Positions 4,112-44,395 of a DNA stretch of 61,031 nucleotides are shown here, in pieces; position 1 is the first letter of the stretch; each line of letters starts with the position of its first letter. The notes under the pieces are model-generated. The model did not search any database. It had not been told where the DNA came from and was given only the letters and a program-made list of their open reading frames with translations. The position numbers and the translations under genes are program-made. The DNA lies in contig VGRY01000018.1 of the NCBI GenBank assembly GCA_016875195.1, forward strand, positions 1-61,031, written 5' to 3'. This DNA is from Deltaproteobacteria bacterium. Lineage in GTDB: Bacteria > Desulfobacterota > BSN033 > UBA1163.

Positions 4112-4678
4112 ATGACCCGAAAAAAGTTTGCCAAAAAGATCCGGCAGATCCGGACAGAAAAATTACTGACTCAAGAATGGGTGGCATCGAGGACCGGATT
4201 TTCAAAGGCCTTTATTTCAAAGATTGAAAACGGCATCACCGCTCCTTCCATAGCGAGCCTTTCAAAAATCGCTGTGGCCTTAGGGGTGGGCATATCCACC
4301 CTATTTGATGGAAATACCGAAGAAAATGAAGATCTGGTTATCATAAGGCGAAACCAAAGGAAGGAAGTGGTGGGACCGGGGACAGACATTGGTTTTGCCT
4401 ATGAATCCCTGGCCTATAAAAAGAAAAATAAATCGATCGAGCCTTTTGTGATCAAATACCCTCCGGGCAGTCATGCCCAGAAACTCTTTGAACACGACGG
4501 TGAAGAGATGATTTTCATTCTCCAAGGGAAGATCAAATTCATCTATGGGGATAGAACCTATCTTCTCGGAGCAGGAGACACAGCCTACTTCAACCCGGCT
4601 ATCCCCCATCGGGGAGAAAGCGTCGGAAAGGAAGAAGGGATCGGCCTTTGTGTGTTGGTGCCCCCGAGCAAGAGATGA
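4112..4678 (+). CDS. XRE-cupin regulator heading catabolic island 1
   Basis: A 188-residue regulator: helix-turn-helix at residues 7-62 (RTEKLLTQEWVASRTGF, FISKIENGITAPS) and a cupin_2 domain at about 110-185 (HDGEEMIFILQGKIKF, GDTAYFNPAIPHRG). It is the first gene of a long rightward run. The E1 alpha gene begins within or just after its end, so regulator and enzymes are probably co-transcribed. Half-sites GTCAAC/GTTGAC around its promoter are candidate binding sites. Regulators of this type often respond to the substrate of the adjacent pathway; the ligand is unknown. Confidence 0.85.
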   Translation: MTRKKFAKKIRQIRTEKLLTQEWVASRTGFSKAFISKIENGITAPSIASLSKIAVALGVGISTLFDGNTEENEDLVIIRRNQRKEVVGPGTDIGFAYESLAYKKKNKSIEPFVIKYPPGSHAQKLFEHDGEEMIFILQGKIKFIYGDRTYLLGAGDTAYFNPAIPHRGESVGKEEGIGLCVLVPPSKR

Positions 4679-4689
4679 GAGGAGAAAAA

Positions 4690-5679
4690 TTGAAACCGGT
4701 AATCGACATGAAGAGCATTGGCCTGGAGATGCTGTTATCCCTCTATCGGAAGATGGTGACCATCCGTCAATTTGAGACCCTGGCAGGCGAGATGTTCGCC
4801 GCCGGAAAGATCCCCGGTTTTATTCATCTCTCCATCGGCCAGGAGGCATCCTCCGTCGGTGTTTGCTCCGTCCTCCGGCCAGATGATTACATCACGACCA
4901 CCCATCGAGGCCATGGCCATGTGATCGCAAAAGGAGGGGATCTGAAGAGGATGTTTGCGGAACTGATGGGGCGGAAGACAGGATATTGCAAGGGCAAGGG
5001 TGGATCCATGCATATCGCTGATTTTTCGATTGGGATTTTGGGAGCGAATGGGGTCGTGGCCGGCGGATTTCCCATTGCCGTTGGAGCAGGCCTTTCCATC
5101 AAACTCAGGAAAACGGATCAGGTGGCTGTCTGTTTTTTTGGCGATGGTGCGTCTAATCGTGGGACCTTCCACGAGGCTTTAAACATGGCCGCTATCTGGA
5201 ATCTTCCTATTTTATTCGTTTGTGAAAATAACTGCTATGCATCGACTACACGAACATCCTATGCCTGTTCGATCACTCATATTGCCACCCGGGCAAACGG
5301 CTATAACATCCCGGGACTGAGTGTGGACGGAAATGATATCTTGGCTGTACGCCAGGCCGCAGACGAAGCAATTGCTCGGGCTCGTCGAGGAGAAGGGCCT
5401 GCGTTGCTTGAGAATAAGACTTACCGCCGTCGCGGTCACTTTGAGGGTGATCCCCAAAAATATCGCACCCAAGAAGAGGTTGCAGAATGGGAACGTAAAA
5501 ATGATCCGCTATTCCGTTTTGCCGCTCTTCTGAGGAGGCGAAAGATTTTAACCAGTGAACTTGAAAATGAGATAAAGGAAAAGGTGGACTGTGAATTAAA
5601 AGAAGCAATCAAGTTCGCCGAAGAGAGTGAATTTCCAAAGCCCGAAGAGGCTCTCGACGACATGTTCATCAATCTGTAA
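4690..5679 (+). CDS. TPP-dependent dehydrogenase E1 alpha (acetoin/2-oxoacid type), copy 1
   Basis: Alpha subunit of a thiamine-diphosphate E1, 329 residues from the TTG at 4690, which has GGAG about six bases upstream; an ATG at 4675 overlapping the regulator stop is an alternative. The TPP motif is intact: GDG at residues 151-153 and CENN ending at 181. HRGHGH (72-77) and KGKGGSMH (101-108) are also typical. The length matches AcoA-type subunits better than long PDH E1 alpha. With the next gene it would decarboxylate a 2-oxoacid, or cleave an alpha-hydroxyketone, and load the acyl group on E2. The actual substrate cannot be told from sequence. Confidence 0.88.
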   Translation: MKPVIDMKSIGLEMLLSLYRKMVTIRQFETLAGEMFAAGKIPGFIHLSIGQEASSVGVCSVLRPDDYITTTHRGHGHVIAKGGDLKRMFAELMGRKTGYCKGKGGSMHIADFSIGILGANGVVAGGFPIAVGAGLSIKLRKTDQVAVCFFGDGASNRGTFHEALNMAAIWNLPILFVCENNCYASTTRTSYACSITHIATRANGYNIPGLSVDGNDILAVRQAADEAIARARRGEGPALLENKTYRRRGHFEGDPQKYRTQEEVAEWERKNDPLFRFAALLRRRKILTSELENEIKEKVDCELKEAIKFAEESEFPKPEEALDDMFINL

Positions 5680-5746
5680 TTGAATTGCTGATCCACGGAC
5701 GCACCCTGCGGGAGGCTAACCGACCACGATCAGAGGGGGGGAAACA

Positions 5747-6727
5747 ATGGCAGATAGAGTAATGAGCAGTTCTGCCGCTTTAGCAGAGGCCCTACAGGAA
5801 GAGATGTCTATAGATGAAACAATATTCATCATTGGTGAAGACCTGATCTCCCATGGAGGGATCTTCGGGCAATTTAAAAATCTGTCCGAGAAGTTTCCAG
5901 GACGGGTCATTGACACGCCCATTTCTGAAACCTGCATTATCGGAGCGGGCCTGGGTGCCGCTCTGACTGGCATGCGTCCATTGGTGGATATGCATTTCGC
6001 AGATTTCGTCACCTGCGCCATGGATGAAATTGCCAACCAAACTGCTAAGATACGGTATATGTTTGGCGGACAGGTCAAGGTCCCGTTAGTCATCTGGGCA
6101 CCCGACGGGGCGGGGTTGCGGGCAGCAGCCCACCATTCCCAATCGTTGGAGAGCTGGTTCGTTCACACTCCGGGAATAAAGGTGGTTGTCCCCAGCGAGC
6201 CTGCCGACGTAAAAGGCCTTACAAAGGCCGCGATCCGCGATGATGACCCTGTTATTTTCTTCCAGCACAAAAAGCTTTTTGCCAAGGAGGGCCCTGTGCC
6301 TGAGGGGGAACACATTGTGCCCCTGGGCAAGGCATCGGTGAAACGTTCAGGAGATCATGTCACCCTCATCACCTACGGTTCGGGTCTCTATATGTGCCTG
6401 GAGGCTTCCAACGAGCTCGCCAGGATGGGCATCGAAGCCGAGGTGATCGACCTCAGGACCTTGAAGCCTCTCGATTTCGACACCATCGCCCGATCAGTCA
6501 AAAAGACCAACCGGGCTGTCGTGGTTCATGAGGCATGTCTCTCCGGTGGGTTCGGAGCGGAGGTGGCCGCCAGAATCGGCTCAGAGCTCTTCGATGATCT
6601 CGACGCCCCCGTCATCCGTGTGGCAGCGAAGGATGTTCCCATGCCCTTTTCCCCAACCCTGGAGGACTTTGTTTTACCAAAGGTTGAAGATATCATCAAA
6701 GCCGTGCAACAGGTGACTTATCGTTAA
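5747..6727 (+). CDS. TPP-dependent dehydrogenase E1 beta, copy 1
   Basis: Beta subunit of 326 residues, partner of the preceding E1 alpha (68-base gap). It has the transketolase pyrimidine-binding domain in residues 4-175 (FIIGEDLISHGGIFG; DTPISETCIIGAGLGAA) and the transketolase C-terminal domain in about 195-315 (EVIDLRTLKPLD). A strong purine-rich ribosome site (GAGGGGGGGAAA) precedes ATG 5747. The alpha and beta subunits form the alpha2-beta2 E1 heterotetramer in the cytosol. E3 follows after 13 bases, so the genes are one operon. Confidence 0.88.
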   Translation: MADRVMSSSAALAEALQEEMSIDETIFIIGEDLISHGGIFGQFKNLSEKFPGRVIDTPISETCIIGAGLGAALTGMRPLVDMHFADFVTCAMDEIANQTAKIRYMFGGQVKVPLVIWAPDGAGLRAAAHHSQSLESWFVHTPGIKVVVPSEPADVKGLTKAAIRDDDPVIFFQHKKLFAKEGPVPEGEHIVPLGKASVKRSGDHVTLITYGSGLYMCLEASNELARMGIEAEVIDLRTLKPLDFDTIARSVKKTNRAVVVHEACLSGGFGAEVAARIGSELFDDLDAPVIRVAAKDVPMPFSPTLEDFVLPKVEDIIKAVQQVTYR

Positions 6728-6740
6728 AGGAGTATACCCA

Positions 6741-8153
6741 TTGCAAAACCAACCGAAGAACTTTGATGTGATCATTATTGGAAGTGGACCGGGCGGTTAT
6801 CTTCCAGCCATCTTCTCCGCTCAAAAAGGCCTGTCCGTGGCTGTGGTTGAAAAAGGGGAATGGGGTGGAACCTGTCTCAATCGGGGATGCATCCCAACAA
6901 AGGCCCTCTTGCAGGATGCCTCTCTTTGGGATGCTTTTAATAAAGCCGGATGGATAAGAGATAAAGGCGAAGTTATTTCTTTTTTTAAAAAGGCACTGGA
7001 AAAGAAGAACACAGCTGTCCAACAAGTCGTTTCGGGCCTGCGAAATCTTTTAAACCGTGACCGTATCATCGTTATCGAGGGAGAGGCCTCCTTCCACAAC
7101 CCCCGAACCATAGGTGTCAAGAGAGATGGAAAGGTTGTAGAACGATTGGAGTCGGGTCGGATCCTGATTGCAACCGGGGCAGTGCCAAAGGAATCGGAAC
7201 CCCTCAAAAGGGATGGCCAATGGGTGATAGGGAGTGACGAAGTCCTTTGTATGGAGGATCTTCCATCCACCCTTGCTATTATTGGAGGAGGGAGACGGGG
7301 ATTGGAGTTTGCCACCTTCTTCAATACATTTGGAGTAAACGTAATCCTCATCGAAAAAGAGAATCGCATCCTCCCGAGGATGGACCGGGAGGTTTCCATC
7401 CGGTGCAAGAGCCTGCTCGCAAAAAGAAAGGTGAAGGTCTGGACGGATTCAGAAGTGGTCTCAACGGAAGTCATGGAAAAAAATAAGTCCGTAGGCCTTA
7501 CGATGAGTCAAAGGGGAAAAAAAGAGAGAGTGGAGGTTGAAAAAGTATTGGTGGTGGCTGAGAGGCGTGGAAATATCGATTCTCTTGATTTAGAAAGGGC
7601 TTCTGTTTCTTTAAAAGATGGCTTCATCGGCGTGGACCTTCATATGAGGACATCGTCTCCAGGAGTCTATGCAGCAGGGGATGTCGTAGGAAAGGGGTTC
7701 TTTGCCCATAAGGCTTTCCATGAAGGGAAGATTGCTGTAGAGAATATGCTTGGAAGAGAAAGCCAGGTGGATTACCGGATGATCCCCAATTGCCTCTATG
7801 CTTATCCCGAGGCCTCTTCCATCGGTCTTACAGAGGAAGAGGCCATCCAGGAATATGGTGAAGTCAACATTGGCAAATTCCCATTCATGGCCTGTGGCCG
7901 ATCCATTGCAATGGGAAACCCGGAAGGTATGGTCAAAATCATCTCCGAAAAGAAATACGGTGAGATCCTCGGAGTCCACATCTTTGGCCCTTCGGCTACT
8001 GAATTGATCCATTTAGGGGCCATGGCCATGAAACATGAAATTGGAGCGGAAGAGATAAAAGAGATGATCTTTGCCCATCCCACCTTCTCAGAAGCCTTCT
8101 GGGAGGCTGCCCTCGATACCGATGGGGGAGCAATCCATATGATGAAAGGATAA
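6741..8153 (+). CDS. lpdA: Dihydrolipoamide dehydrogenase (E3), island 1
   Basis: A 470-residue FAD disulfide oxidoreductase that reoxidises dihydrolipoamide on E2 with NAD+. The start is a TTG at 6741 with AAAGGAG upstream. The FAD-binding GSGPGG lies at residues 14-19, and the redox pair is C45 and C50 in GGTCLNRGC. A second GGGRRG NAD-binding loop is at about 181-186. AAGDV is at about 311-315, and the C-terminal HPTFSE carries the catalytic His-Glu region. It sits between E1 beta and E2, so it is dedicated to this complex. A second E3 is encoded in island 2. Confidence 0.9.
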   Translation: MQNQPKNFDVIIIGSGPGGYLPAIFSAQKGLSVAVVEKGEWGGTCLNRGCIPTKALLQDASLWDAFNKAGWIRDKGEVISFFKKALEKKNTAVQQVVSGLRNLLNRDRIIVIEGEASFHNPRTIGVKRDGKVVERLESGRILIATGAVPKESEPLKRDGQWVIGSDEVLCMEDLPSTLAIIGGGRRGLEFATFFNTFGVNVILIEKENRILPRMDREVSIRCKSLLAKRKVKVWTDSEVVSTEVMEKNKSVGLTMSQRGKKERVEVEKVLVVAERRGNIDSLDLERASVSLKDGFIGVDLHMRTSSPGVYAAGDVVGKGFFAHKAFHEGKIAVENMLGRESQVDYRMIPNCLYAYPEASSIGLTEEEAIQEYGEVNIGKFPFMACGRSIAMGNPEGMVKIISEKKYGEILGVHIFGPSATELIHLGAMAMKHEIGAEEIKEMIFAHPTFSEAFWEAALDTDGGAIHMMKG

Positions 8154-8167
8154 TTCGGAGATCGACT

Positions 8168-9346
8168 ATGGCAACGACGGTGATCATGCCCAAACTGGGC
8201 TTGACCATGACAGAAGGAACCATTGAAAAATGGTTAAAGCAGGAAGGGGATCGTGTCGAAAAGGGGGAGCCTCTTGTTGAAATTATTACGGAGAAAATCA
8301 ATTTTCAGTATGAATCCCCGGCCTCCGGTATTCTTCGGAAAATCCTCCATCATGAGGGAGAGACCGTCCCGGTGACAACTCCCATTGCCATCATCGCTGA
8401 AGAAGGAGAAACTATGGCGGAGATAGAAATGGCCAGGCCCGAAGTCCCTGTGGAGGTATCTTTGCCCGTTGCTGTGCAAACACAAAGCAAAGAACCTTCC
8501 GAAAGGATCCTCGCCTCTCCGATTGCCAGGAAGATGGCTCAAGAAAAAGGGATCGACCTTTCTTCCATCAAAGGATCTGGCCCGACGGGAAGGATCATTA
8601 AAATGGATGTCTTGAAGGTCGCCGAAAAAGGAGTGGCCCCTCCCCTGCGGAAGTCTTCCGAAAAATTGATCCCCCTCAAAGGGATCCGAAGAATCATTGC
8701 CAAGCGGATGACGGAAAGTTTTCAGAATGTCCCTCATTTCTACCTCTCCTTAGAAATTGACATGACTTCCTGTCTGGCACTTCATGACCAATTGAGAGAG
8801 GAGGTGGAAAAACGCACTAATCTGCGACTCACCCTGACAGATATCCTCGTGAAAGTGGCAGCCTCAGCCCTGAAAGACCAACCCATCATCAATTCGAGAA
8901 TCGAAGGGGATCAGATTCATTTAATAGAGGAGATCAACATCGGAGTGGCCATTGCTCTCGAGGACGGACTGATTGTTCCCGTCGTCCATGATGCCGATCA
9001 AAAATCATTAACGGAAATCGCCTCCACACTCAGAGGCCTCACCCAAAAAGCAAAAGAGGGGAAACTCTCTCTCCAAGAAGTGGGAGGGGGGACTTTTACC
9101 CTGTCCAACATGGGGATGCTTGGAATCGATAAATTTAACCCGATTATCAACCCTCCCGAATGTTCCATCCTCGGAGTTGGGAGAACGGTTGAGAAGCCCG
9201 TCTTCCATGGGGGCGAAATCAAGGTCAGGCCCATGGCCTGGTTCAATCTGTCTTCAGACCATCGAATCGTCGATGGGGCCACAGCCGCCCAATTCTTAAA
9301 TCGCATAAAGAAAACCGTCGAAAATCCCCCGCTTCTTCTTCTTTGA
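8168..9346 (+). CDS. Dihydrolipoamide acyltransferase (E2), island 1
   Basis: A 392-residue E2 core enzyme. It has one lipoyl domain at residues 1-77, with the lipoylated lysine predicted at K43 in ITEKIN. A peripheral-subunit-binding domain follows at about 116-152 (SPIARKMAQEKGIDL, GSGPTGRI). The catalytic acyltransferase domain covers 170-392 and keeps the active-site DHRIVDG. It transfers the acyl group from lipoate to CoA. A GGAGATCGACT leader gives a normal ribosome site. It lies between two different E1 alpha/beta pairs, so a shared E2 is possible. Confidence 0.9.
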   Translation: MATTVIMPKLGLTMTEGTIEKWLKQEGDRVEKGEPLVEIITEKINFQYESPASGILRKILHHEGETVPVTTPIAIIAEEGETMAEIEMARPEVPVEVSLPVAVQTQSKEPSERILASPIARKMAQEKGIDLSSIKGSGPTGRIIKMDVLKVAEKGVAPPLRKSSEKLIPLKGIRRIIAKRMTESFQNVPHFYLSLEIDMTSCLALHDQLREEVEKRTNLRLTLTDILVKVAASALKDQPIINSRIEGDQIHLIEEINIGVAIALEDGLIVPVVHDADQKSLTEIASTLRGLTQKAKEGKLSLQEVGGGTFTLSNMGMLGIDKFNPIINPPECSILGVGRTVEKPVFHGGEIKVRPMAWFNLSSDHRIVDGATAAQFLNRIKKTVENPPLLLL

Positions 9347-9381: not shown

Positions 9382-10362
9382 ATGAGTATTCCATTGGATG
9401 AAAATCTCTGTCTGAAGCTCTACGAGCGGATGTTGACCATCCGCATGTTTGAAGAAAAGGCGATTGAACTCTTCGAACACAACCTCATCCGGGGTAATGT
9501 CCATCCCTGTATCGGACAAGAAGCCGTTTCCGCGGGAGTGTGTGCGACTCTGCGACGGGACGACTATATGCTGAACACCCATCGGGGTCACGGCAATTGC
9601 ATTGCCAAAGGGGCCGATTTGAAGCGAATGATGGCCGAACTCCTCGGTAAAGAGACCGGCTATTGCAGAGGAAAGGGTGGCTCCATGCATATCGCCGATT
9701 TCGAGGGAGGAAATCTGGGAGCCAATGGGATTGTGGGCGGAGGCATCCCCATCGCCGTTGGGGCGGGAATCAGCGTCCAGAACAGGGGCACCGATCAAGT
9801 CGTTGTCTGTTTCTTCGGAGATGGCGCAACGAATCAAGGGACCTTCCATGAAAGCCTCAATTTAGCCGCACTCTGGAAGCTTCCGGTTGTTTTTATCTGT
9901 GAGAATAACCAATACGGCCTCTCCACGCCGGTCCGTGAGGCCGTATCCATCTTCCGTATTTCAGACCGGGCAATCGCTTACGGCATTCCCGGGGTGAGCC
10001 TCGATGGAAACGATGTGATCGAAGTTTATACAAAAACCGTGGAAGCCGTGGAAAGAGCAAGAGCAGGAGAGGGACCCGCACTTCTCGATTGCGTCACCTA
10101 TCGTTTCTTTGGCCATTTTACGGGTGATCCCGGCAGGGGGATCAATTATCGATCGAAGGAAGAGATGAATCAATGGCTGGACCGTTGCCCGGTTAAGCAG
10201 TTTAAAGAACAGCTCTTTCGAGAAAAAATCGTGACTGAGGAGACCGGGAAGGCGATCGAAGCGAAGGTAAGGGCCTCCATCGAAGAGGCTGTCCGATTTG
10301 CAAAGGAGAGTCCCTTTCCGTCACCTGAAGAAACTACACAGGACCTGTTTCTTTTGAAATAG
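9382..10362 (+). CDS. TPP-dependent dehydrogenase E1 alpha, copy 2
   Basis: A 326-residue E1 alpha, clearly a paralogue of the subunit at 4690. The TPP motif is intact: GDG at residues 146-148 and CENN ending at 176. HRGHGN and RGKGGSMH are conserved. The same operon thus encodes two E1 alpha/beta pairs but only one E2 and one E3. The two alpha chains differ around the substrate region after CENN (NQYGLSTPVREA here, NCYASTTRTSYA in copy 1). This is consistent with different oxo substrates feeding one core, or with a recent duplication that diverged. The ribosome site before ATG 9382 is weak. Confidence 0.88.
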   Translation: MSIPLDENLCLKLYERMLTIRMFEEKAIELFEHNLIRGNVHPCIGQEAVSAGVCATLRRDDYMLNTHRGHGNCIAKGADLKRMMAELLGKETGYCRGKGGSMHIADFEGGNLGANGIVGGGIPIAVGAGISVQNRGTDQVVVCFFGDGATNQGTFHESLNLAALWKLPVVFICENNQYGLSTPVREAVSIFRISDRAIAYGIPGVSLDGNDVIEVYTKTVEAVERARAGEGPALLDCVTYRFFGHFTGDPGRGINYRSKEEMNQWLDRCPVKQFKEQLFREKIVTEETGKAIEAKVRASIEEAVRFAKESPFPSPEETTQDLFLLK

Positions 10363-10409
10363 CTCTTATCCCTTCCACCTCAACGGGAGAGAGGCAGGGT
10401 ATCAGAAAG

Positions 10410-11390
10410 ATGCCGGAAATTACTTTTGTTGAATCTCTCAGGATGACCCTTAAGGAAGAGATGGAGAGAGATCCTTCTCTCATGCTCATCGGGGAGGATA
10501 TTGGCCGTTACGGGAGCATCTTCGGCGTAACCAAAGGCCTCCTCGAAGAATTCGGGCCTCACCGGATTAGGAGCACCCCGATCTCGGAATCTGCGATCAT
10601 TGGCTCTGCATTGGGGGCAGCAATGACCGGGACCCGCACAATCGCTGAAATCATGTATGTTGACTTCACCACATGCGCAATGGATCAGATCGTCAACCAG
10701 GTCGCCAAGATGCGATACATGTCGGGTGGCAAGGCGAAGATCCCTCTTGTGATTCGAACCCAGGGAGGCGGAGGCAGGGGGAATGCGGCCCAGCATTCCC
10801 AGAGCCTTGAAGCGCTTTTTCTCCATATCCCCGGCCTTAAGATCGTCATGCCATCAACACCCTACGACGCAAGAGGTCTTCTAAAGACGGCCATACGGGA
10901 TGATAACCCTGTCATGTTCATCGAGCATAAACTGCTATATGCGACTAAAGGGTCGGTCCCTGACGGAGAATATCTTATCCCCTTTGGCCAGTCCGATATA
11001 AAAAGAAAAGGTAAGGATGTCACAATCGCTGCGATTTCCTATATGGTCATGAAAGCCTTAAAGGCCGCGCAACGATTGGCAGGAGAAGGGATTGAAGCAG
11101 AGGTCATCGATCTCAGAAGTCTTGTTCCTTTAGACCTTGACTCCATTTTACAATCCGTTCGTAAAACCAATCGGGTTGTGATCGTGCATGAGGGGTGTCG
11201 AAGGAATGGGATAGGAGCCGAAATTTCCTCTCTCATCCAAGAGGAGGCCTTCGATTTTCTCGATGCTCCGGTAGAACGAGTGGGTTCCTTGAATGTCCCC
11301 ATTCCATATGCCGAGCCTCTCGAAAAGGCCGTCATCCCCGATGAGGAGGATATTGTGACCGCTGTGAAGAAAGTCTTATACCGAACTTAA
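10410..11390 (+). CDS. TPP-dependent dehydrogenase E1 beta, copy 2
   Basis: A 326-residue beta subunit that pairs with the E1 alpha at 9382. Conserved landmarks are LIGEDIGRYGSIFG, STPISESAIIGSALGAA and EVIDLRSLVPLD. The gap to the alpha gene is 47 bases. It has the same length as E1 beta copy 1 and aligns end to end by eye, but with many substitutions. Together with copy 1 it gives island 1 two complete E1 enzymes. The zinc alcohol dehydrogenase follows after about 50 bases on the same strand. Confidence 0.88.
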   Translation: MPEITFVESLRMTLKEEMERDPSLMLIGEDIGRYGSIFGVTKGLLEEFGPHRIRSTPISESAIIGSALGAAMTGTRTIAEIMYVDFTTCAMDQIVNQVAKMRYMSGGKAKIPLVIRTQGGGGRGNAAQHSQSLEALFLHIPGLKIVMPSTPYDARGLLKTAIRDDNPVMFIEHKLLYATKGSVPDGEYLIPFGQSDIKRKGKDVTIAAISYMVMKALKAAQRLAGEGIEAEVIDLRSLVPLDLDSILQSVRKTNRVVIVHEGCRRNGIGAEISSLIQEEAFDFLDAPVERVGSLNVPIPYAEPLEKAVIPDEEDIVTAVKKVLYRT

Positions 11391-11440
11391 AGATCCAAAA
11401 GAATATTCCATCAATCAAAGCTTTGATAAAGAGGAAAAAC

Positions 11441-13666: not shown

Positions 13667-13771
13667 ACACAAACCCCCATCGATCTTCTTCTCTCTCCCC
13701 CTGTCCGATGGTAGGGGGACAGAGAAGGGGTGATGGGAAAAACCTTTGAGAAAGGGCCCAAAGGAGCATCC

Positions 13772-15603: not shown

Positions 15604-15641
15604 GGATGACTTTGCAAGTTTATGAATGAAAGGAAATGAAC

Positions 15642-33091: not shown

Positions 33092-33131
33092 AAATTTCAC
33101 CTCAAATCATTTCTTTTTTCGACCCCACTTT

Positions 33132-36231: not shown

Positions 36232-37305
36232 TCAATCAAACACAACCGCTCCTTTAATAAAACCATCAGGAGGATGGGCAGTTTCCTCTAAGGCTTTAGG
36301 TAATTCCTCAAGAGGATAGGTCACATTGTTTATCTTCTCGATGGCATATTTTCGAGAATTGATGATGCGCATCGCATCCTTCACATTTCCTGCCTGTGCA
36401 TGATCCGCCAAGAGAGTGACCCCTTTTGCCACCAAAAGATCAAACTGGATCGGTGTCTCCTTACCGCCGGAAAGGCCGATGGTGACAACACGACCGATTG
36501 GTTTGACGAGGTTGAGTGCAGTCTGGATGGCAGAAGGAACCCCTGAAGTTTCAACCACCACATCTGGAAAACCACCAAGAATCTCTGGAACAACCTTAAG
36601 CGGATCTTCCTTTTCGATGTTGATTGTGAAATCCACTCCAAATTCTTTAGCCAGTTTAAACCGTGCATCATCTCGACTTAACCCGAGAATGGCGATCGGA
36701 CCCACTCCACATTCTCTTGCAACAATCAGGGTAGCCAATCCCTGAGAGCCTACTCCGCTGATGACCAAACTCTGGCCGAATGTCATTTGACCCAGGGTTT
36801 TTACCCAACGGACCCCATTCCCAATAACAGAGCTTAATGAAGCCGCCTTGTCCGGCACACCCTCTGCAACTTGATGAACAAGAGACCCAGGGAGGAGATA
36901 CATGAACTCGGAATATCCACCGAAGAGAAAGGGGGGTTGGTCCGCAGTCAATGTCAAACCATAAACCCTCATCGGCCGACATTTATGATAATAGAATTCT
37001 GTTCGACACCATTGGCAGTGTCCGCAGGGGATCATCGGCTCTACAGTAATTCGATCTCCTCGCTTAAGGTGATAATGATCTGATGCTTCTTGATCAATCT
37101 CAGCCACTTGGCCTACCAGCTCATGACCCATGATCACCGGGAATGCCACATAAGGGGTATGTCCCCATAGGATTTTTGGATCTGACGCGCAAACCGATGT
37201 CGTCGTTAACTTTAGGAGGATCTGCCCCTTTAAAGGAGTCTCGACTTCAAACTCCTTCATTTCCATCTTCCCAGGCTCAACCACAACCATTGCTTTTGAT
37301 TTCAT
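36232..37305 (-). CDS. Zinc-dependent alcohol dehydrogenase (MDR family), island 2
   Basis: A 357-residue paralogue of the enzyme at 11441, with identical spacing of all zinc ligands: C39, H61, E62 for catalysis and C94, C97, C100, C109 for structure. The cofactor-binding stretch is SGVGSQGLATL. AAGGAG precedes ATG 37305. Both islands thus carry the same dehydrogenase type beside a TRAP system and an E1-E2-E3 complex. It probably oxidises a secondary alcohol or polyol acid taken up by the TRAP system. The duplicated-domain protein lies 18 bases upstream. Confidence 0.87.
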   Translation of the reverse strand: MKSKAMVVVEPGKMEMKEFEVETPLKGQILLKLTTTSVCASDPKILWGHTPYVAFPVIMGHELVGQVAEIDQEASDHYHLKRGDRITVEPMIPCGHCQWCRTEFYYHKCRPMRVYGLTLTADQPPFLFGGYSEFMYLLPGSLVHQVAEGVPDKAASLSSVIGNGVRWVKTLGQMTFGQSLVISGVGSQGLATLIVARECGVGPIAILGLSRDDARFKLAKEFGVDFTINIEKEDPLKVVPEILGGFPDVVVETSGVPSAIQTALNLVKPIGRVVTIGLSGGKETPIQFDLLVAKGVTLLADHAQAGNVKDAMRIINSRKYAIEKINNVTYPLEELPKALEETAHPPDGFIKGAVVFD

Positions 37306-37323: not shown

Positions 37324-38142
37324 TCATAAGCTGTTTAACAAACTCTTTGCTGCATCCTGGACTTTCATTCCGGTTTTTACCCCCAATGTTGATGCTAATC
37401 CATTGGCTACTGATATCAGCCCGGTTTCCCAGGCATCCCTCGCATGCCCAATCATGGCTGTCATGCAGTCAATGGCAGCGGCAGGCACCTCGAACTTGTC
37501 ATAGGCCGGTAAGGCGGAGATTCCCTGATTTTCCTTACCCTTACCGGCATCGTTAAGAAAAATGGATTTGAGATTTAAATCTTTCGTCCATTCTAAAGTC
37601 GTATGCGCGCAATGGGAACCGCAGACCACCACACACTCGCGATGACTTTCATTTAAAAAAGAAATTGAGTCAGCTAACACGATTCGTCGGTTGCCAATTT
37701 GGTAAACCACCTCAGTCGTATAAAGGAATGTGGAGGATGTCTTTGCCTGAATCATTTTTTGACAGGCTTCTGCTACCCTCATCCCAACCCTGACCCCTGA
37801 TTTTTCGGCCAGAGAATTGACAGCGGAAACGATTCCGGAGGCATAATGATCTTCTCCGTCTCCAATACGGGCACTCATACAATCAACCGTAGCGCCTAAA
37901 ATGCTCATCACCTCAAATACATGTAGACATGAAATGCCTGCCTGATTCTTTCCGACCCCGGCGTCATTTAGAAAAACTCCAAAAGGAAGATATCTCGACA
38001 TGTGTCGTGCAGTGGTCTCTGCGCCATGGGATCCGGCCACAACGATTTGTCCTGTCTCGTCTGGACTCATGGAGGCAGCCGAATCCATCACGATGATCTT
38101 CCCCCACTCCTCTACAACGACAACTCTCTTCTTTGCGATCAT
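37324..38142 (-). CDS. Unrecognised protein made of two tandem copies of one domain
   Basis: A 272-residue protein from ATG 38142 (the frame stays open to 38250, inside the preceding SDR). It consists of two homologous halves offset by about 138 residues. Shared motifs: GSH (38-40 and 175-177), FLNDAG (57-62 and 195-200), GIS (69-71 and 207-209), DCM (87-89 and 225-227), then an IG and GMxV near the end of each half. I do not recognise the family. Conserved Gly-Ser-His, Asn-Asp and Cys suggest an active or binding site per half. There is no signal peptide. It lies between an SDR (ten bases upstream) and the zinc dehydrogenase, so it likely acts in the same pathway. Confidence 0.75.
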   Translation of the reverse strand: MIAKKRVVVVEEWGKIIVMDSAASMSPDETGQIVVAGSHGAETTARHMSRYLPFGVFLNDAGVGKNQAGISCLHVFEVMSILGATVDCMSARIGDGEDHYASGIVSAVNSLAEKSGVRVGMRVAEACQKMIQAKTSSTFLYTTEVVYQIGNRRIVLADSISFLNESHRECVVVCGSHCAHTTLEWTKDLNLKSIFLNDAGKGKENQGISALPAYDKFEVPAAAIDCMTAMIGHARDAWETGLISVANGLASTLGVKTGMKVQDAAKSLLNSL

Positions 38143-38152: not shown

Positions 38153-38971
38153 TCATCCTCCTTGCAGCAGTAGACCTCCATCAACAGCAAGGATCTGACC
38201 CGTGATATACTTCGCTTCCTCAGAAACGAGGAAAAGCGAAGCCGTAGCAATATCCCAGGGTTCTCCCATATGCTTCATCGGTACCCTTTCGTTACGGTCC
38301 TTTCTCATCTTTTCAATATCCCCTCCATACAGGGGAAGGATCTCTTTATAAATGGGAGGAGAATCGATCATTCCAGGCATAATACAGTTGACTCGAATAC
38401 CCAGAGATGCAAATTCTGCCGCCAGGCACTTTGTAAAGGTATTAATGGCTGCCTTTGAAATGGTATAGATGAAAAGCTTCGGATAAGCGTGTAGGACCGC
38501 CCCTACGGATGAAATGTTAAGTATCGTCCCGCTTCCCTGTTTCACCATTTGTGGCAGAACAGCCCGGCAGGTATGAAACAGGCCTTTAAGGTTCACATTC
38601 ATCACTCTGTCCCAATCTTCTTCATCTGCCTCCAAGATTCCGCATGCTTTGCGTGGACCAATTCCCACATTGTTGTGGAGAGTATCAATCCGGCCATAGA
38701 TCTTAAGACACTCTTCTGCCATCGCATTGCAATCTTTAGGACGGGATATATCCGCCTGAAAAATCGAACATGTCCCTCCTTCCGCTTCGACCATCTGCTT
38801 TGTCTCTAGTGCAGAGTCTAAGCGGTTATCAACCGCCAGGATGGATGCTCCTTCCCTCGCAAAAACAATCGCAGTCGCCCTGCCGTTCCCAATGGGAGGT
38901 CGATCCTGTGGACCTGGAACAGAGCCCGCTCCGGTTACAATGGCCACTTTCCCCTTCAAGCGACTACCCAT
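38153..38971 (-). CDS. SDR oxidoreductase with extended nucleotide loop, island 2
   Basis: A 272-residue SDR from ATG 38971, chosen for its GAGGAGG site; the frame upstream to 39070 is translated from an intergenic palindrome. Active-site NISSVG and YTISKAA are present. The nucleotide loop is very long: TGAGSVPGPQDRPPIGNGRA. It is probably the counterpart of the island 1 SDR at 15642, which shares the GNGxA ending, LHNNVGI and the C-terminal VDGGL. It presumably oxidises a hydroxyl group of the imported substrate with NAD(P)+. The duplicated-domain gene follows after ten bases. Confidence 0.85.
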   Translation of the reverse strand: MGSRLKGKVAIVTGAGSVPGPQDRPPIGNGRATAIVFAREGASILAVDNRLDSALETKQMVEAEGGTCSIFQADISRPKDCNAMAEECLKIYGRIDTLHNNVGIGPRKACGILEADEEDWDRVMNVNLKGLFHTCRAVLPQMVKQGSGTILNISSVGAVLHAYPKLFIYTISKAAINTFTKCLAAEFASLGIRVNCIMPGMIDSPPIYKEILPLYGGDIEKMRKDRNERVPMKHMGEPWDIATASLFLVSEEAKYITGQILAVDGGLLLQGG

Positions 38972-39154: not shown

Positions 39155-39973
39155 TTAGTTCCCCCGATATTTCTTATTTCTCAAAAATTCCTTTCTGGCC
39201 CGGACATACGTTTCCCAATCCTGCATCCCCAAGGAAATACCGCCATCCACATCAATCGTTGAACCCGTGATCATCCTCGATTTTTCGGATGCCAGAAAGA
39301 CGACTGCATTGGCGATGTCTTCTGGTTTCACCAAATCCTTCAGAGGGGTTCGACTTCTCACGGATTCCCTCATCTCAATTGTGGAGTGGGCCTCTACAAG
39401 CGGAGTCATCGTCACTCCTGGGCAGATAGCATTGACATTGATTTTGTGAGGTCCAAGCTCGAAGGCAAGATGCCGTGTAAAACCTAAGACCGCTGCTTTC
39501 GAAGCAGTATAATCCGCTCCCCCATGATAGCTCATGGTTTTGCCGGCGAGTGAGGCAATATTAATGATCTTGCCGCCTCCTCTGGCCTTCAATGTGGGGA
39601 TCACTGCCCTTGAGCAGTTAAAGACTCCTCCAAGATTAATGTCAAGTATTTTGTCCCATTCGGCCTTGTCCATGTCTTCAACCATCATGGGCCGTCCAGT
39701 CCCGGCATTGTTCACCAGGATATCGATTCCTCCCCATTCGGTCACAACTTTGGCGACCATGGTAATCACTTCACCTTCTACAGCCACATTGGCCTGAACG
39801 GCCATCGCTCTGGGACCTATCGTTCTAACCTCTCTCGCAGTGCTTTCAGCCCAATCGAGATTCAGATCATTGCAGACGAGATCCCCCCCTTCCCGGGCTA
39901 ACGCAAGAGCGGTTGCTTTTCCAATTCCCTGCCCTGCTCCTGTAACAAGCGCGATTTTCCCACGAAACTCCAT
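39155..39973 (-). CDS. SDR oxidoreductase (classical), island 2, copy 2
   Basis: A 272-residue classical SDR: TGAGQGIGKA (residues 11-20), NNAG, and the active-site Ser/Tyr/Lys in NIASLAG and YTASKAA. The C-terminus DVDGGISLGMQDWE is followed by a basic tail. GGGAGG lies upstream of ATG 39973. It is a close paralogue of the next upstream SDR (40023-40826): both contain GGADYTASK and an end of the type DVDGG. Two near-twin SDRs may act on different stereoisomers, as in enantiomer-specific diol pathways, which is inference. Confidence 0.87.
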   Translation of the reverse strand: MEFRGKIALVTGAGQGIGKATALALAREGGDLVCNDLNLDWAESTAREVRTIGPRAMAVQANVAVEGEVITMVAKVVTEWGGIDILVNNAGTGRPMMVEDMDKAEWDKILDINLGGVFNCSRAVIPTLKARGGGKIINIASLAGKTMSYHGGADYTASKAAVLGFTRHLAFELGPHKINVNAICPGVTMTPLVEAHSTIEMRESVRSRTPLKDLVKPEDIANAVVFLASEKSRMITGSTIDVDGGISLGMQDWETYVRARKEFLRNKKYRGN

Positions 39974-40022: not shown

Positions 40023-40826
40023 TCAGGTCTGGCTTGCCTTCATTCTTCTCTCAATATCTTCAGGATAATTTCCAAAGCCTAAAAGTTGTCCTCCATCCAC
40101 ATCGAGAATATGCCCGGTGATCATTTTCGCTCGGTCACTGGCCAGAAAGAGTACGGCTTCTGCCTGGTCTTCAGGGCTGCACCACCGCCCAAGGGGTACC
40201 CTCGCTGCAATCTTCTCCTTAACGTCTTGCGGCGCCTTCTCGTCTGTCATCTTTGTCAGTGTGGCGCCCGGGCAGACCACATTCACATTGATCCCGTAGT
40301 AAGCCAATTCATAAGCGAGGTGATGGCTCAACCCAACTACCCCGTATTTGGAAGCCGTATAGTCCGCCCCTCCCAGGAAACTCATTCTTCGAGCAGCGAG
40401 AGAAGCAATATTGACAATTTTCCCCCTCCGTCTTTCAATCATCGTGGGAATCACTGTCTGACAACAGAGAAAGACTCCTTTTAAATTGATGGCCATTACC
40501 TGATCCCACACCTGTTCTGGAATATCTTTCACAATAAGAGAGGACCCACCAATCCCAGCATTATTCACAAGGATGTCAATCGTTCCGAAACGTTTTAATA
40601 TTTCATCCCCCATGGATTTGACTTCGCTTTTGTTTGACACATCGGCTTTGAAGGGAAGAGACTTTCTTCCCATTGCCTCAATCTTGCGTGCCACACTTAT
40701 TGCATCATCGAGGTGGATATCATTGACAACGACATGGGCGCCCTCGCGAGCAAACGTAAGAGCAATCGCCTCTCCGATTCCTCTCCCAGCTCCTGTGACA
40801 ATCGCAATTTGATCTTTAAGCTCCAT
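40023..40826 (-). CDS. SDR oxidoreductase (classical), island 2, copy 1
   Basis: A 267-residue classical SDR with TGAGRGIGEA (residues 11-20), NNAGIGG and the active-site residues in NIASLAA and YTASKYG. The C-terminus has LDVDGGQLLGFGNYPEDIE. It follows the TRAP set a dctM gene by 75 bases and precedes its near twin by 49. AAAGGAT is the probable ribosome site. With the SDR at 38971 it makes three SDRs in this island. Confidence 0.87.
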   Translation of the reverse strand: MELKDQIAIVTGAGRGIGEAIALTFAREGAHVVVNDIHLDDAISVARKIEAMGRKSLPFKADVSNKSEVKSMGDEILKRFGTIDILVNNAGIGGSSLIVKDIPEQVWDQVMAINLKGVFLCCQTVIPTMIERRRGKIVNIASLAARRMSFLGGADYTASKYGVVGLSHHLAYELAYYGINVNVVCPGATLTKMTDEKAPQDVKEKIAARVPLGRWCSPEDQAEAVLFLASDRAKMITGHILDVDGGQLLGFGNYPEDIERRMKASQT

Positions 40827-40900: not shown

Positions 40901-42199
40901 CTATTTCCCTCCCATCAGCAGATTGGGTAACCACAATACCACCTGTGGGAAAAAGGTGGACGTCACAAGCGCAAAGACCAAGGCCAGGATAAAAACCCAG
41001 GATTCCCTGACGACCTTTCCAAAATCAGCATTTGCAATGGTGCTCGTCAGGTAGGCTAAGAAGCAAACCGGCGGGGTAATTAACCCAACCATCAAGTTAA
41101 GAATGATGATCACCCCAAAATGGACGGGATCGATTCCCACCTTCTCAATCAAAGGCATCAGCATTGGAACGACGACGACCAATCCGGTATTGGGATCAAG
41201 CAGACAGCCCCAGATGAGAAAAAAGATGTTTAGAATTGCCAAGACGACCCATTTATTTGTGGAAATGGAGGTAAAAAAATTGTAGAGGATCTCCCCTGCT
41301 CCCATGGAAGCAATCAACCAGCTGAAGACACCGCTCGAAGCCAGAATAATCATAATGTATGAAGAACCAATCATCGATTCTTTGAAAATTCTTGGAATAT
41401 CCTTCCAATGAAGCTCCCTATAGACAAAAAGTCCTACAACAAGGGCATAAAAAACAGCCACCACCCCTGCCTCAGTAGGTGTAACCACACCTAATACAAT
41501 CCCGAAGATAATGATCAAAGGCATGATCAACGCAAAAGACGAGCTCAGGAACGTCCATACAATTTGCCGGAACGTTGCTCTCTGTCTGGCAGGGAAATTT
41601 CTCTTCTTGCTAATGAAATAAGAGGCGATGATGAGATAGAGGCCCATGAGGATTCCGGGGATAGCTCCCCCCAAAAAGAGTCTCCCAATAGAGACATTGA
41701 CTAAAAGGCCATAGATGACCATTGGGATGCTGGGCGGGATGATGGGTCCAATGGTGGCGGCTGCCGCTACAACCGCAGCAGAGTATTCCGCAGGATAACC
41801 ATCCTTCTTCATCGCAGGAATCAGGACAGAACCGGTAGCAGAGGCATCCGCTATCGCCGATCCTGAAACGCCTGCCATGATCATGTTGGCAATGATACTG
41901 ACATGGGAGAGTCCTCCCTTGATATGACCAACAAGAGAAGCAGCAAAATCGACCAGCCTCTTCGTAATCCCTCCGGTGTTCATAAGATCACCAGCCAGAA
42001 AGAAAAATGGGATGGCAAGAAAACCGAAAGAATCAAGCATACCGACCATATTATTGGGAATAACAATGAATGGAACCTTATGATGGAAGATCAGGATATA
42101 AATAACAGAAGAAAAACCCATACTGAGAAAAATGGGCACTCCGAGAAAAGCAAAGATCAAAAAGGGAATAAGAAGGATGAGGAGGGGAAGGATTTCCAC
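40901..42199 (-). CDS. dctM: TRAP transporter large permease (DctM), island 2 set a
   Basis: A 432-residue polytopic permease. The start is a GTG at 42199, directly after the dctQ stop (TAA at 42200-42202), with GAGGAGG inside the end of dctQ, so translation is coupled. Signatures are IPFFFLAGDLMNTGG and ATIGPIIPPSIPMVIYG. It is the first of two DctM proteins of island 2. Two complete TRAP systems in one island suggest two substrates, or one substrate and a product or counter-solute. Confidence 0.9.
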   Translation of the reverse strand: MEILPLLILLIPFLIFAFLGVPIFLSMGFSSVIYILIFHHKVPFIVIPNNMVGMLDSFGFLAIPFFFLAGDLMNTGGITKRLVDFAASLVGHIKGGLSHVSIIANMIMAGVSGSAIADASATGSVLIPAMKKDGYPAEYSAAVVAAAATIGPIIPPSIPMVIYGLLVNVSIGRLFLGGAIPGILMGLYLIIASYFISKKRNFPARQRATFRQIVWTFLSSSFALIMPLIIIFGIVLGVVTPTEAGVVAVFYALVVGLFVYRELHWKDIPRIFKESMIGSSYIMIILASSGVFSWLIASMGAGEILYNFFTSISTNKWVVLAILNIFFLIWGCLLDPNTGLVVVVPMLMPLIEKVGIDPVHFGVIIILNLMVGLITPPVCFLAYLTSTIANADFGKVVRESWVFILALVFALVTSTFFPQVVLWLPNLLMGGK

Positions 42200-42694
42200 T
42201 TAGCCCCTCCTCTTTTCTATTTTCTGAATTGTAAGATCCCTTAAATCTCCAACGATGATCGGGATGAAGAGGAGGATCATCAGAACCGCGCTCACCGGCG
42301 CAGCAGCGAACATCACTCCTCTCGGGATGGGCATAGAAATCAGGTCCATCCCTTCGACCGACTGGATAACTTCGATACCCTTAATCCCAACGATAAGGAG
42401 AAAGAGGAGGGTAAAAAGATCGATGAAGATCAGAAGGATTCTTCGTGTCTTCACAGAAAGCCGTTCGCTGACAAGGGTGATCCTCAGGTGGGCCTTCCGG
42501 TGGATACCGATCACAGTACCCAGCCAGACAGCCCAGATCATGAGGAGAATATCGAGTTCATGAGCCCAGACTAAAGAGTGCCTCAAAACATATCGACTAA
42601 AAACCTGGGCGAGGGCCGTGGCTGCAATAATCATGAAAAGAGTCCCAACCATGTATTCAAGAATCCTTGCGACAACAGCGGTTACCTTTTTCAT
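42200..42694 (-). CDS. dctQ: TRAP transporter small permease (DctQ), island 2 set a
   Basis: A 164-residue protein with four predicted helices and typical block SLVWAHELDILLMIWAVWLG (residues 40-59), followed by HRKAHLRI. It partners the DctM encoded immediately downstream. The 52-base gap to dctP has no strong hairpin. Confidence 0.85.
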   Translation of the reverse strand: MKKVTAVVARILEYMVGTLFMIIAATALAQVFSRYVLRHSLVWAHELDILLMIWAVWLGTVIGIHRKAHLRITLVSERLSVKTRRILLIFIDLFTLLFLLIVGIKGIEVIQSVEGMDLISMPIPRGVMFAAAPVSAVLMILLFIPIIVGDLRDLTIQKIEKRRG

Positions 42695-42746
42695 GGTTTT
42701 TCCGAATTGACGTAATCGGGACCGGCTTCTTAACCTTAACCCAAAC

Positions 42747-43733
42747 TTACTTTACAGCCTGGATCTTATCAAAAAGCCCTTTCTCCCAGAGATCTCCTTC
42801 GAATTTCTTATTCGCCTCGGCCGCAAGTTTCTTGAAGGGACCGAGATCAGGATAAATAATTTCCATGCCGTTCTTTTTCAAGATATCGATCGACTCGTCC
42901 ACTGAATCGTTTGTCCATTTGGTCGCCCACTTCTCTGTATCTCCGGCTGCCTCTTGAAAGATTCTCTTTTGATCAGGATTGAGCTTGTTCCAGTGTTCCG
43001 CCGCCATAAGGACAATCAACCCACTCCGAACGTAATCCACCACGATGACATACTTTTGCACCTCATAATATTTGGCCTGAGCGACGGAATCAAACCCATT
43101 GTCCTGACCTTCAACGACCCCTTGTTTCAGCGCCGTGTAGAGTTCGGAAGCTGCAAGCGGGGTGGGTGCCGTTCCCCAGGCTTTCATTGTTTCCATAATG
43201 ATTTTGATTTCTGGAACACGAATCTTCAATCCTTTAAGATCCTCCAACTTTGTTACGCGGCGATTGGTGGTGGTGATCTGTCTTGGGGCGCGGTCACTCA
43301 CGTACCCGATGTACTTGAACCCCCCTTCTTTCTCCACCTTTTCGACCATCTCTTTGTACACCGGAGAAGCCAAGGTTTTCCTCAGGTGGTCTTGATCCCT
43401 AAAGACGTAGGGTGCAAAGATGACGTTAAAATCCTTTCCTCCTTTTGCTATAGCAAGAGAAGCAAGATCACACAGGATCATGTCAACCTGTCCGGTTTTG
43501 ATTCCGGCCAAGATCTGAGGAAGGCTGCCGAGTTGTCCTCCCCCAAACCATTTGATCTGGAACTGGTTATTCGTTTTTTGTGCAATGATTTGTCCGTACT
43601 TCTCCGCGATGGGGCCCCAGACCGGAGGAGGAGCTACGAACGCCATTTTCCAGACCGTCTGGGCCGGAGTTTGTGAAACAAACAGGATGGAAAAAACAAA
43701 AAACATAGAAATAAATAGATTCAACTTTTTCAT
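42747..43733 (-). CDS. dctP: TRAP solute-binding protein (DctP), island 2 set a
   Basis: A 328-residue periplasmic protein from ATG 43733 with AAAGGAGG nine bases upstream (a TTG at 43739 is less likely). The signal peptide ends near residue 24 (QTPAQ). R172 in LKIRVPE is the conserved carboxylate-binding arginine, followed by ASELYTALKQGVVEGQ. It resembles the DctP at 34963 more than the island 1 protein. It lies 50 bases after the regulator gene, so the operon probably starts at the regulator promoter. Confidence 0.88.
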   Translation of the reverse strand: MKKLNLFISMFFVFSILFVSQTPAQTVWKMAFVAPPPVWGPIAEKYGQIIAQKTNNQFQIKWFGGGQLGSLPQILAGIKTGQVDMILCDLASLAIAKGGKDFNVIFAPYVFRDQDHLRKTLASPVYKEMVEKVEKEGGFKYIGYVSDRAPRQITTTNRRVTKLEDLKGLKIRVPEIKIIMETMKAWGTAPTPLAASELYTALKQGVVEGQDNGFDSVAQAKYYEVQKYVIVVDYVRSGLIVLMAAEHWNKLNPDQKRIFQEAAGDTEKWATKWTNDSVDESIDILKKNGMEIIYPDLGPFKKLAAEANKKFEGDLWEKGLFDKIQAVK

Positions 43734-43783
43734 AACCAAATTCCTCCTTTCTAAATTTTGGTTAATTGTGCCCCTATCTTAAC

Positions 43784-44395
43784 TTAACCTGTGGTTTGAA
43801 AAGTCCCGATCCGGGTGCCTGGAATGAGATGGACATTGATCGTTCGGGTCTGTTTTTTACTCAGGCTCTTCCCTCCATGCGGAATTTCCCCGATAAAATA
43901 GGCCGCATCCCCCTTATTCAAAGTATATTTCTTCTCTCCGAGCGTTAATTCTAGTTTCCCTTCCAAGACATAAATAAACTCCTGCCCGTCATGTCTAGCC
44001 AAGGGAAAATCCTCGTCGGGGCCTGCAAACTCTGTGACAATACATGGCTCCATGAAGGGATTTTCCATCCCTTCAACAAGAAGCTCTAATCCATAGATGA
44101 CTTTCTTCTTATCTCCCCTTTTGGAATAAGTCATTTTCCGATTTCCCTGCCGGGTGATGACATATCCCCGGTCCTCTTCCTTCTTAAAGAAATAACTGAG
44201 GTCAACCTTGAGGATATCGGAGATGGTTTGTAAGGTAGGAATGGACGGCATGAGAAGACCGTTTTCGATCCTTGAAAAGAGAGGGGGGGAAAGGTTAGTA
44301 GCCGCGGCAAGTTGTTTCAGGCTGAGGCCCATCGATTTTCGAAGACCTTTCAGCCTTCCTCCGATTCTCAGGGCCAAATCGTTTTTTCCCCTCAT
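43784..44395 (-). CDS. XRE-cupin regulator heading catabolic island 2
   Basis: A 203-residue regulator from ATG 44395, which has GGAAAGGAG upstream. The frame is open to 44488, but that TTG is the -35 box of the promoter. The helix-turn-helix covers residues 11-66 (LRKSMGLSLKQLAAATNL, LFSRIENGLLMPS); the cupin_2 domain covers about 125-195 (RHDGQEFIYVLEGKLEL, GDAAYFIGEIPHGG). It is the third regulator of this kind in the window and the first gene of island 2, as the one at 4112 is of island 1. Confidence 0.85.
   Translation of the reverse strand: MRGKNDLALRIGGRLKGLRKSMGLSLKQLAAATNLSPPLFSRIENGLLMPSIPTLQTISDILKVDLSYFFKKEEDRGYVITRQGNRKMTYSKRGDKKKVIYGLELLVEGMENPFMEPCIVTEFAGPDEDFPLARHDGQEFIYVLEGKLELTLGEKKYTLNKGDAAYFIGEIPHGGKSLSKKQTRTINVHLIPGTRIGTFQTTG

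Follow-up and report, generated by a model that had tools for sequence, protein, structure and literature searches.

Two gene islands combining TRAP transporter genes with an acetoin-operon-like dehydrogenase set at separate sites of a Desulfobacterota contig

The DNA analysed here (the window, 61,031 bases) is one whole contig, VGRY01000018.1 (G000:C18 in our numbering), from GCA_016875195.1, a 4.08 Mb Desulfobacterota draft genome that is 87% complete. It carries two gene islands, A at about 4.1-17.5 kb on the plus strand and B at 27.5-44.5 kb on the minus strand; each holds an XRE-cupin regulator, the DctP, DctQ and DctM genes of a tripartite ATP-independent periplasmic (TRAP) transporter, a zinc medium-chain dehydrogenase/reductase (MDR), a short-chain dehydrogenase/reductase (SDR) with a long loop, and the E1 alpha, E1 beta, E2 and E3 components of a thiamine-lipoate dehydrogenase complex. 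A preliminary description of this DNA had listed the same set for both islands, and all these genes were recovered close to where it placed them; it had also called the islands mirrored and alike in plan, of which the shared gene set stands, the mirroring amounting to opposite strands only, with a different gene order. Island open reading frames (ORFs) were called at a minimum of 120 aa, and the anatomy comes from Pfam and NCBIfam scans, with the second DctQ and the E2 of island B placed by similarity outside those scans. One should bear in mind that TRAP genes alone are unremarkable in this genome, since it has 35 matches to the DctM family.

Island A starts with the XRE-cupin regulator (4112-4678; HTH_3 50.8 bits, Cupin_2 54.1 bits), followed on the same strand by E1 alpha 1 (4648-5679; E1_dh 313 bits, loops THRGHGH..KG and GHFEGDP), E1 beta 1 (5747-6727; Transket_pyr, Transketolase_C), the E3 dihydrolipoyl dehydrogenase (6741-8153; Pyr_redox_2, Pyr_redox_dim), E2 with lipoyl, E3-binding and catalytic domains (8168-9346; 2-oxoacid_dh 286 bits), E1 alpha 2 (9382-10362; NCBIfam PDH_E1_alph_y 374.8, under the cut-off of 393.85) and E1 beta 2 (10410-11390; NCBIfam NF006667 415 bits). 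The island thus has two E1 alpha/beta pairs (4648-6727 and 9382-11390). Then come the MDR (11423-12514; ADH_N, ADH_zinc_N), a single TRAP set (12623-15603) made of DctP (12623-13666; lactate/2-oxoacid branch by sequence, best PDB match 2zzv, E 6e-38), DctQ (13730-14275; PF04290 80.5 bits) and DctM (14272-15603; TIGR00786 306.7, above the cut-off of 268.45), and one SDR (15636-16442), identified by profile scan and inspection of its loop, TGAGSIGPGWGNGKA. After the SDR, on the minus strand and within the same insert, lies a divergent ketol-acid reductoisomerase (KARI; 16454-17512; TIGR00465 304 bits). In a scan of named genomes, the nearest relatives of the window's MDR belong to a Syntrophaceae draft genome, an uncultured bacterium and Dethiosulfatarculus.

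Island B, read along the minus strand, begins with its XRE-cupin regulator (43784-44488; HTH_3, Cupin_2) and a first TRAP set (43739-40901) of DctP (42747-43739; PF03480 204 bits), DctQ (42200-42694; PF04290 90.8 bits) and DctM (40901-42199; PF06808 405.6 bits). Three SDRs follow: SDR1 (40023-40826) and SDR2 (39155-39973), both from profile scans, and SDR3 (38153-38971, start ATG inferred; 51% identical to the A SDR), which has the longer loop TGAGSVPGPQDRPPIGNGRA. Next are a tandem DUF1805-like protein (37324-38142, start ATG inferred; PF08827 32.6 bits over a cut-off of 29.5, on a short stretch), whose two halves align with each other, and the MDR (36232-37305; profile scan, zinc-site residues). 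The second TRAP set (35973-33132) comprises DctP (34963-35973; NF037995 154.7 bits, SiaP-like branch), DctQ (34459-34950; assigned by position and 29% identity to the first DctQ) and DctM (33132-34418; PF06808 405.1 bits). The island closes with a PCC (DUF296) protein (32576-33100; PF03479 59.5 bits), E1 alpha (31607-32566; E1_dh 246 bits), E1 beta (30535-31503; NF006667 344.5 bits), E2 (29030-30289; 42% to the A E2) and E3 (27505-28890; TIGR01350 465, above the cut-off of 408.8).

Identity between the two islands is uneven: 59% for the MDR, 51% for the SDR, 49-52% for E1 beta, 42-43% for E1 alpha, 44% for E3, 42% for E2, 25-30% for DctM and 32% for the XRE-cupin regulator. A third XRE-cupin gene at 368-955 is equally distant from both (33-34%), all three regulators being 32-34% identical. 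The Cys, His and Glu expected at both zinc sites align in the A and B MDRs, in agreement with the identical ligand positions noted earlier; we take these residues to bind zinc, as is usual for the family. Quick-type trees were built for seven genes, from samples collected by similarity in the phylum and among plasmids, in which several long branches were flagged and nearer relatives may be missing. The MDRs of A, B and loci L028, L029, L030 and L063 form a six-row clade (support 99), and the A SDR and B SDR3 fall within a seven-row clade (99) that includes alphaproteobacterial plasmid SDRs standing beside TRAP genes; for E2, A and B come together with a weak support of 85, and E3 decides neither way. 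The preliminary description had derived both islands from one ancestor and let them diverge in substrate, a history that these groupings favour; specific relatedness of the paired genes is, however, confined to the MDR and SDR. E1 alpha and E1 beta place the first E1 of A, the second E1 of A and the E1 of B in three clades, B grouping with genome G296, and DctM sets A apart from B. Approximately unbiased (AU) tests, run on six of the seven genes with E3 left out and giving optimistic p values because the groups were chosen after viewing the trees, reject a single clade for E1 alpha (0.0004 for the first E1 of A with B, 4e-5 for the second), E1 beta (0.006 and 0.017) and DctM (0.0006). Even for the MDR, the A group with B alone is disfavoured (p 0.02), and the A SDR goes with those of alphaproteobacteria (98), although for this gene a group of A and B alone is not rejected (p 0.058). 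Gene order and the number of TRAP sets differ too, and the islands occupy separate sites. Trees, AU tests and sites together speak against the whole islands being copies of one ancestral island, and duplication of such an island with later divergence in substrate is a very improbable history. By their sequences, A and B look like mosaics with two dehydrogenase families and a plan in common, which means that look-alike islands within one genome can be put together separately from shared parts.

The sites themselves were compared in other genomes of the genus, five of nine for site A and four of nine for site B. On the left of A lies a CoA-binding, acyl-CoA-synthetase-like gene (2084-3514, plus; CoA_binding, Succ_CoA_lig), with orthologues at 73-85% identity in 8 of the 9 other genomes of the genus (a partial one among them); internal stop codons were seen in those of G009, G007, G003 and G005. 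On the right of A, a 4Fe-4S protein gene (17831-18640, plus) adjoins, in G002 and G004, which lack A, the gene of a 148-aa membrane protein. B is flanked by an AlaX-like gene (26684-27346, minus) on the left and an MFS transporter gene (44587-45936, minus) on the right; in G002 and G006 the two are direct neighbours with no B between them, and the MFS gene occurs in all ten genus genomes, our own included. G002 runs from the synthetase-like gene through the 148-aa membrane protein and the 4Fe-4S protein, then DUF4139, to AlaX, MFS and ABC genes with neither island; both are also missing from G004 (AlaX unseen) and from both places in G007. G006 lacks B and has a different TRAP transporter at the place of A, and in G008 a lone TRAP transporter stands there. 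The place of A is thus a recurrent site of change (lone TRAP in G006 and G008). According to comparison of the flanking DNA, B extends from about 27465 to about 44581, whether set against G002 or G006. The right border of A was placed near 17734-17739, and its left one is less sharp; no direct or inverted repeats of at least 11 bases were found between the compared border stretches. Since genomes of the same genus keep the surrounding order without the islands, each island has a site of its own. For B, gain seems the likelier direction. A may be an ancient locus that many relatives have lost, because A-type islands adjoin the same synthetase-like gene at L028 and L029, despite its being part of the backbone. 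This gene had been considered as an energy-conserving last step of A, an idea dropped because it is kept in genus members without A.

A-type islands, some of them incomplete, were found in five other genomes: L028 (genome G015), L029 (G010), L166 (G014), L063/L074 (G078) and, in part, L031 (G393, where it is also L164), each with DctP/DctM and E1 of the first type. Compared with A, their first-type E1 alpha/beta, E2, DctP and DctM are 75-88% identical (the DctM of L031 being partial) and DctQ, where present, 59-83%. A full MDR stands in L028, L029 and L063 only, with a 141-residue piece in L031 and a 28-residue remnant in L166, and a second E1 alpha/beta pair in L029 only. Unlike A, the islands of L028, L166 and L063 have a PCC gene, and those of L063 and L031 an SDR of another type. 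PCC accompanies E1 in these three, in L168 and in B. Among the 395 phylum genomes searched (394 besides our own) there were 39 MDR matches, 5 close (a clade of at least 56% identity) and 34 distant. The close MDR adjoins E1 alpha/beta and E2 at six of seven loci (A, B, L028, L029, L063/L074 and L031), the seventh, L030, lacking this arrangement, with just 3.2 kb of sequence on one side. E1 stood beside none of the distant MDRs in the 23 of 34 neighbourhoods inspected (20 + 3, the remaining 11 left out), several of which are short enough (from 4.8 kb) for an E1 to escape notice. With 6 of 7 against 0 of 23, the association exceeds chance. It is not a strict link: MDR-like genes at 24-29% lie near E1 in 3 of 19 E1 neighbourhoods (L156, L161, L171), and a 40% MDR adjoins E1 in a haloarchaeon. 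A haloarchaeal plasmid (Natronosalvus) carries MDR, E1 beta, E1 alpha and E2 beside E3, TRAP and SDR genes, with a DUF1805-like gene about 14 kb off. No orthologue of B as a whole turned up in the 394 other phylum genomes, as judged by three B genes: beyond the window, E1 alpha identity peaks at 51% (G296), that of the DUF1805-like protein reaches 48% for a single domain (G060) and 36% for the whole tandem (G077), and no other MDR exceeds 60% to that of B.

The core of both islands has a counterpart in known operons. In Pelobacter carbinolicus, acoABCSL shares its cluster with an MDR gene, budX, and there are two butanediol dehydrogenases of the SDR type, the MDRs acting on (R)- and the SDRs on (S)-hydroxyls; that paper does not contain the word "trap" (PMC3543383). 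According to another paper, P. putida co-transcribes an R,R-butanediol dehydrogenase gene with acoX and homologues of acoA-C (PMC8427195). By annotation, an Acinetobacter plasmid (L185) aligns E1 alpha, E1 beta, E2, E3, an acetoin reductase (SDR) and a 2,3-butanediol dehydrogenase (MDR), and a Paracoccus plasmid (L189) lists E1 alpha, E1 beta, acetoin E2, an SDR, a small gene, 2,3-butanediol dehydrogenase and a sigma-54 regulator, with E3 not listed. Like these operons, the islands have E1 alpha, E1 beta and E2 with an SDR and an MDR, together with E3 (as in Acinetobacter), and the first E1 alpha of A has their GHFEGD loop; unlike them, the islands add a TRAP importer, an XRE-cupin regulator in place of a sigma-54 AcoR-type activator at the head and, in B, a PCC protein, their MDR and SDR are distant, and the E1 alpha loops of B are replaced. 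They are in composition a TRAP-coupled variant of the known acetoin-operon plan, with TRAP, PCC and XRE-cupin as the difference. The earlier statement that no named pathway has exactly this set therefore has to be qualified for the core of E1 alpha/beta, E2, SDR and MDR, which those operons have without TRAP genes. No publication combining acetoin dehydrogenase with a TRAP transporter was found in our literature search; none of the surveyed items on acetoin or butanediol describes this gene set, by title or start of abstract, and the matches listed for DUF296 with TRAP were mostly on plants.

The E1 alpha subunits bear on the predicted cleavage step. Those of A and B, at 366.1, 374.8 (second E1 of A) and 268.8 bits, fall below the cut-off of 393.85 of TIGR03182 for pyruvate dehydrogenase (PDH) E1 alpha. 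Our alignment of 41 E1 alpha rows has RGHGH in 32 and the first His of this motif in 38, the other three being B, its relative L156 and L061 of our own genome. GHFEGD occurs in 21 rows, including the first E1 alpha of A, L185, L189 and a Klebsiella E1-E2-E3 operon (L186) without annotated acetoin gene, whose E1 alpha groups with L185. The loops presumably sit close to the cofactor and the substrate, beside the active site. The first E1 alpha of A has both, the second partial forms (RGHGN, GHFTGD); in place of the usual loops, B has THRGMPEYLGKG, GEG and PHHTGDP, and L156, its nearest relative, THRAWPEYIGKG, GEG and SHFTGD, GEG being found in one further row (L174). The human chains read YRAHGF/GHSMSD for PDH and YREAGV/GHHNTSDD for branched-chain 2-oxoacid dehydrogenase (BCKDH), of which the latter entry may be mutated. 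For the first E1 of A, which looks acetoin-dehydrogenase-like, we infer a cleavage of the acetoin type, so that in A an alpha-hydroxyketone would be the likelier compound to be cleaved. As B has replaced the same loops, its E1 alpha probably has a changed specificity and a substrate different from that of A; B would point to an E1 subtype with a rebuilt loop next to the presumed active site.

On the import side, DctP, DctQ and DctM stand side by side in the TRAP sets, above family cut-offs, except that the second DctQ of B is assigned from its position and similarity alone. The A DctP is nearest to lactate-binding TTHA0766 (2zzv; named lactate-binding in 7e9y) and ketoacid-binding 7ug8; its alignment keeps the Arg of a KLR motif and an acidic residue and lacks the Gln of 4pet and 7ug8, residues whose roles are presumed. 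The B DctPs are nearest to a general and a sialic-acid-type branch, which says little on their ligand. The KARI linked to A may serve plain branched-chain amino acid synthesis, because the divergent type is the sole KARI found in G010 and G011; our genome has another KARI, a stronger match, on contig C32. KARI was dropped as a pathway part, except in the bolder proposal given below.

Our preferred reading, to which we give an even chance, is that A and B are separately placed catabolic cassettes on the acetoin/2,3-butanediol plan, coupled to TRAP, in which oxidation by MDR and SDR precedes cleavage by E1/E2/E3. Gene content, the recurrence of A, the separate sites and the mosaic trees are observed. 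The steps and substrates would run as follows. In A, TRAP would bring in an organic acid bearing hydroxyls, and in B another anionic compound of polyol type. MDR and SDR would oxidise secondary hydroxyls of opposite handedness in a vicinal diol, giving an alpha-hydroxyketone, or, alternatively, convert a hydroxy acid to an oxoacid; cleavage of the product by the complex would release acyl-CoA and NADH along with one more fragment, an aldehyde or CO2. The XRE-cupins would serve as sensors of small pathway molecules. The uptake-oxidation-cleavage route proposed in the preliminary description gains from the repeated joint occurrence of its parts, its substrate and activities being predictions. 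Also in favour of the preferred reading are the stereospecificities given for Pelobacter, the Acinetobacter and Paracoccus operons, the GHFEGD loop in the first E1 alpha of A, the placement of the A DctP and the Natronosalvus plasmid. Several observations weigh against the preferred reading. Only 4 of 19 E1 neighbourhoods have a DctM match (L157, L164, L166, L168) and only 2 a piece of the close MDR (L164, L166). In G014 (L166) the island has its MDR remnant and an SDR split in two frames: either the plan is dispensable or the draft is faulty there, and unless it is, this suggests decay of an A-type island. The A MDR is 30% identical to the Paracoccus butanediol MDR and has no match to that of Acinetobacter at 1e-10, a threshold at which the B MDR matches neither; the SDRs are 27-36% identical to annotated butanediol-operon SDRs. 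The A SDR (193.8), B SDR1 (219.2) and B SDR3 (176.4) miss the BudC cut-off of 270, B SDR2 being outside that scan, and the MDRs of A and B (150.4 and 143.6 bits) miss the 458.35 of L-threonine 3-dehydrogenase TIGR00692. By cut-off or identity, neither the MDRs nor the SDRs would be classed as butanediol dehydrogenases. Among island ORFs of at least 120 aa, no aldehyde dehydrogenase, acoX or AcoR was recognised, though no dedicated search was made. The E1s of A form no single clade with those of L185 and L189, and the RGHGH/GHFEGD loops appear to mark a wide group beyond acetoin enzymes alone. With the loops in 32 and 21 of 41 rows, GHFEGD is less specific for acetoin enzymes, which weakens an acetoin-type reading and strengthens one based on 2-oxoacids.

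That competing explanation, which we consider possible though doubtful, sees ordinary 2-hydroxy-acid oxidation: TRAP would import a 2-hydroxy or 2-oxo acid, MDR/SDR would yield the 2-oxoacid, and a plain 2-oxoacid dehydrogenase would give acyl-CoA and CO2. It agrees with the placement of the A DctP nearest lactate and 2-oxoacid binding proteins, has no need of an aldehyde dehydrogenase (the enzyme not recognised above), and fits a B E1 alpha without GHFEGD and with GEG as in the BCKDH chain; the E1 alpha/beta, E2 and E3 families and their domain make-up are also those of PDH and BCKDH. The islands differ from such complexes in E1 alphas under the NCBIfam PDH cut-off and in having TRAP and alcohol dehydrogenase neighbours; the first E1 alpha of A carries the loop of acetoin-operon enzymes, and two dehydrogenases of different fold per island would better suit stereoisomeric diols. 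Could the pair instead handle the enantiomers of a diol that carries a sulfonate group, for example dihydroxypropanesulfonate (DHPS), like the zinc enzyme HpsP and the SDR HpsO? In the consulted part of a study of Roseobacteraceae, these two dehydrogenases for opposite enantiomers share an operon with transporters and a regulator; in the same part, a primary hydroxyl is oxidised, a different chemistry, and no E1-E2-E3 or other cleavage complex is named (PMC11131964). Moreover, the island ORFs included no recognised hpsN-like or sulfolyase gene, though no search was aimed at them, and we regard this explanation as extremely improbable. A bolder proposal, unlikely in our view, is an undescribed pathway class in which anionic vicinal diols, or else branched 2-hydroxy acids, would be brought in by TRAP and undergo acetoin-dehydrogenase-type cleavage. 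In A, a reversed KARI would turn 2,3-dihydroxyisovalerate into acetolactate and then acetoin; in B, a new E1 subtype with its His-Gly-His loop replaced would cleave another substrate, with the PCC and tandem DUF1805 proteins as working parts. If the preferred reading of TRAP-coupled cassettes is true, it offers a testable organic-acid route for uncultured relatives of Syntrophaceae and places PCC/DUF296 and tandem DUF1805-like proteins in catabolic clusters recurring in bacteria and haloarchaea.

For the DUF1805-like protein of B, no PDB sequence matched at E 0.1, an AlphaFold single-sequence model was uninformative (pLDDT 35.5), and the DUF1805 literature turned up nothing on catabolism by title. 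In two haloarchaea, genes of tandem length adjoin RuBisCO-like genes and genes for four-carbon acid sugar kinases; in Rhizobium, Rhodococcus and Aminobacter they lie near genes of TRAP, SDR or CoA-ester type; such proteins in catabolic clusters come from L044, L050, L043, L046, L047 and L070. PCC/DUF296 genes were seen beside TRAP and long-loop SDR, MDR or E1 genes at L043, L048, L049, L121 and L168, assigned by annotation in the first three. On a Thermus thermophilus plasmid (L151), E1 alpha and E1 beta stand just ahead of TRAP DctP, a small gene and DctM. Elsewhere in our own genome, a cluster on contig C62 (L060) has two E1 alpha/beta pairs, two E2 and one E3; inspection by eye adds a LipB-like gene and a pair of kinases of the FGGY type. 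Between the islands, 24250-25674 (minus) encodes a metallo-beta-lactamase of the alkyl-sulfatase type (Alkyl_sulf_dimr 113 bits), in which a twin-arginine-like signal was noticed by eye, and the contig ends in an apparent IstB-like ATPase fragment, also recognised by eye (60631-61029, minus).

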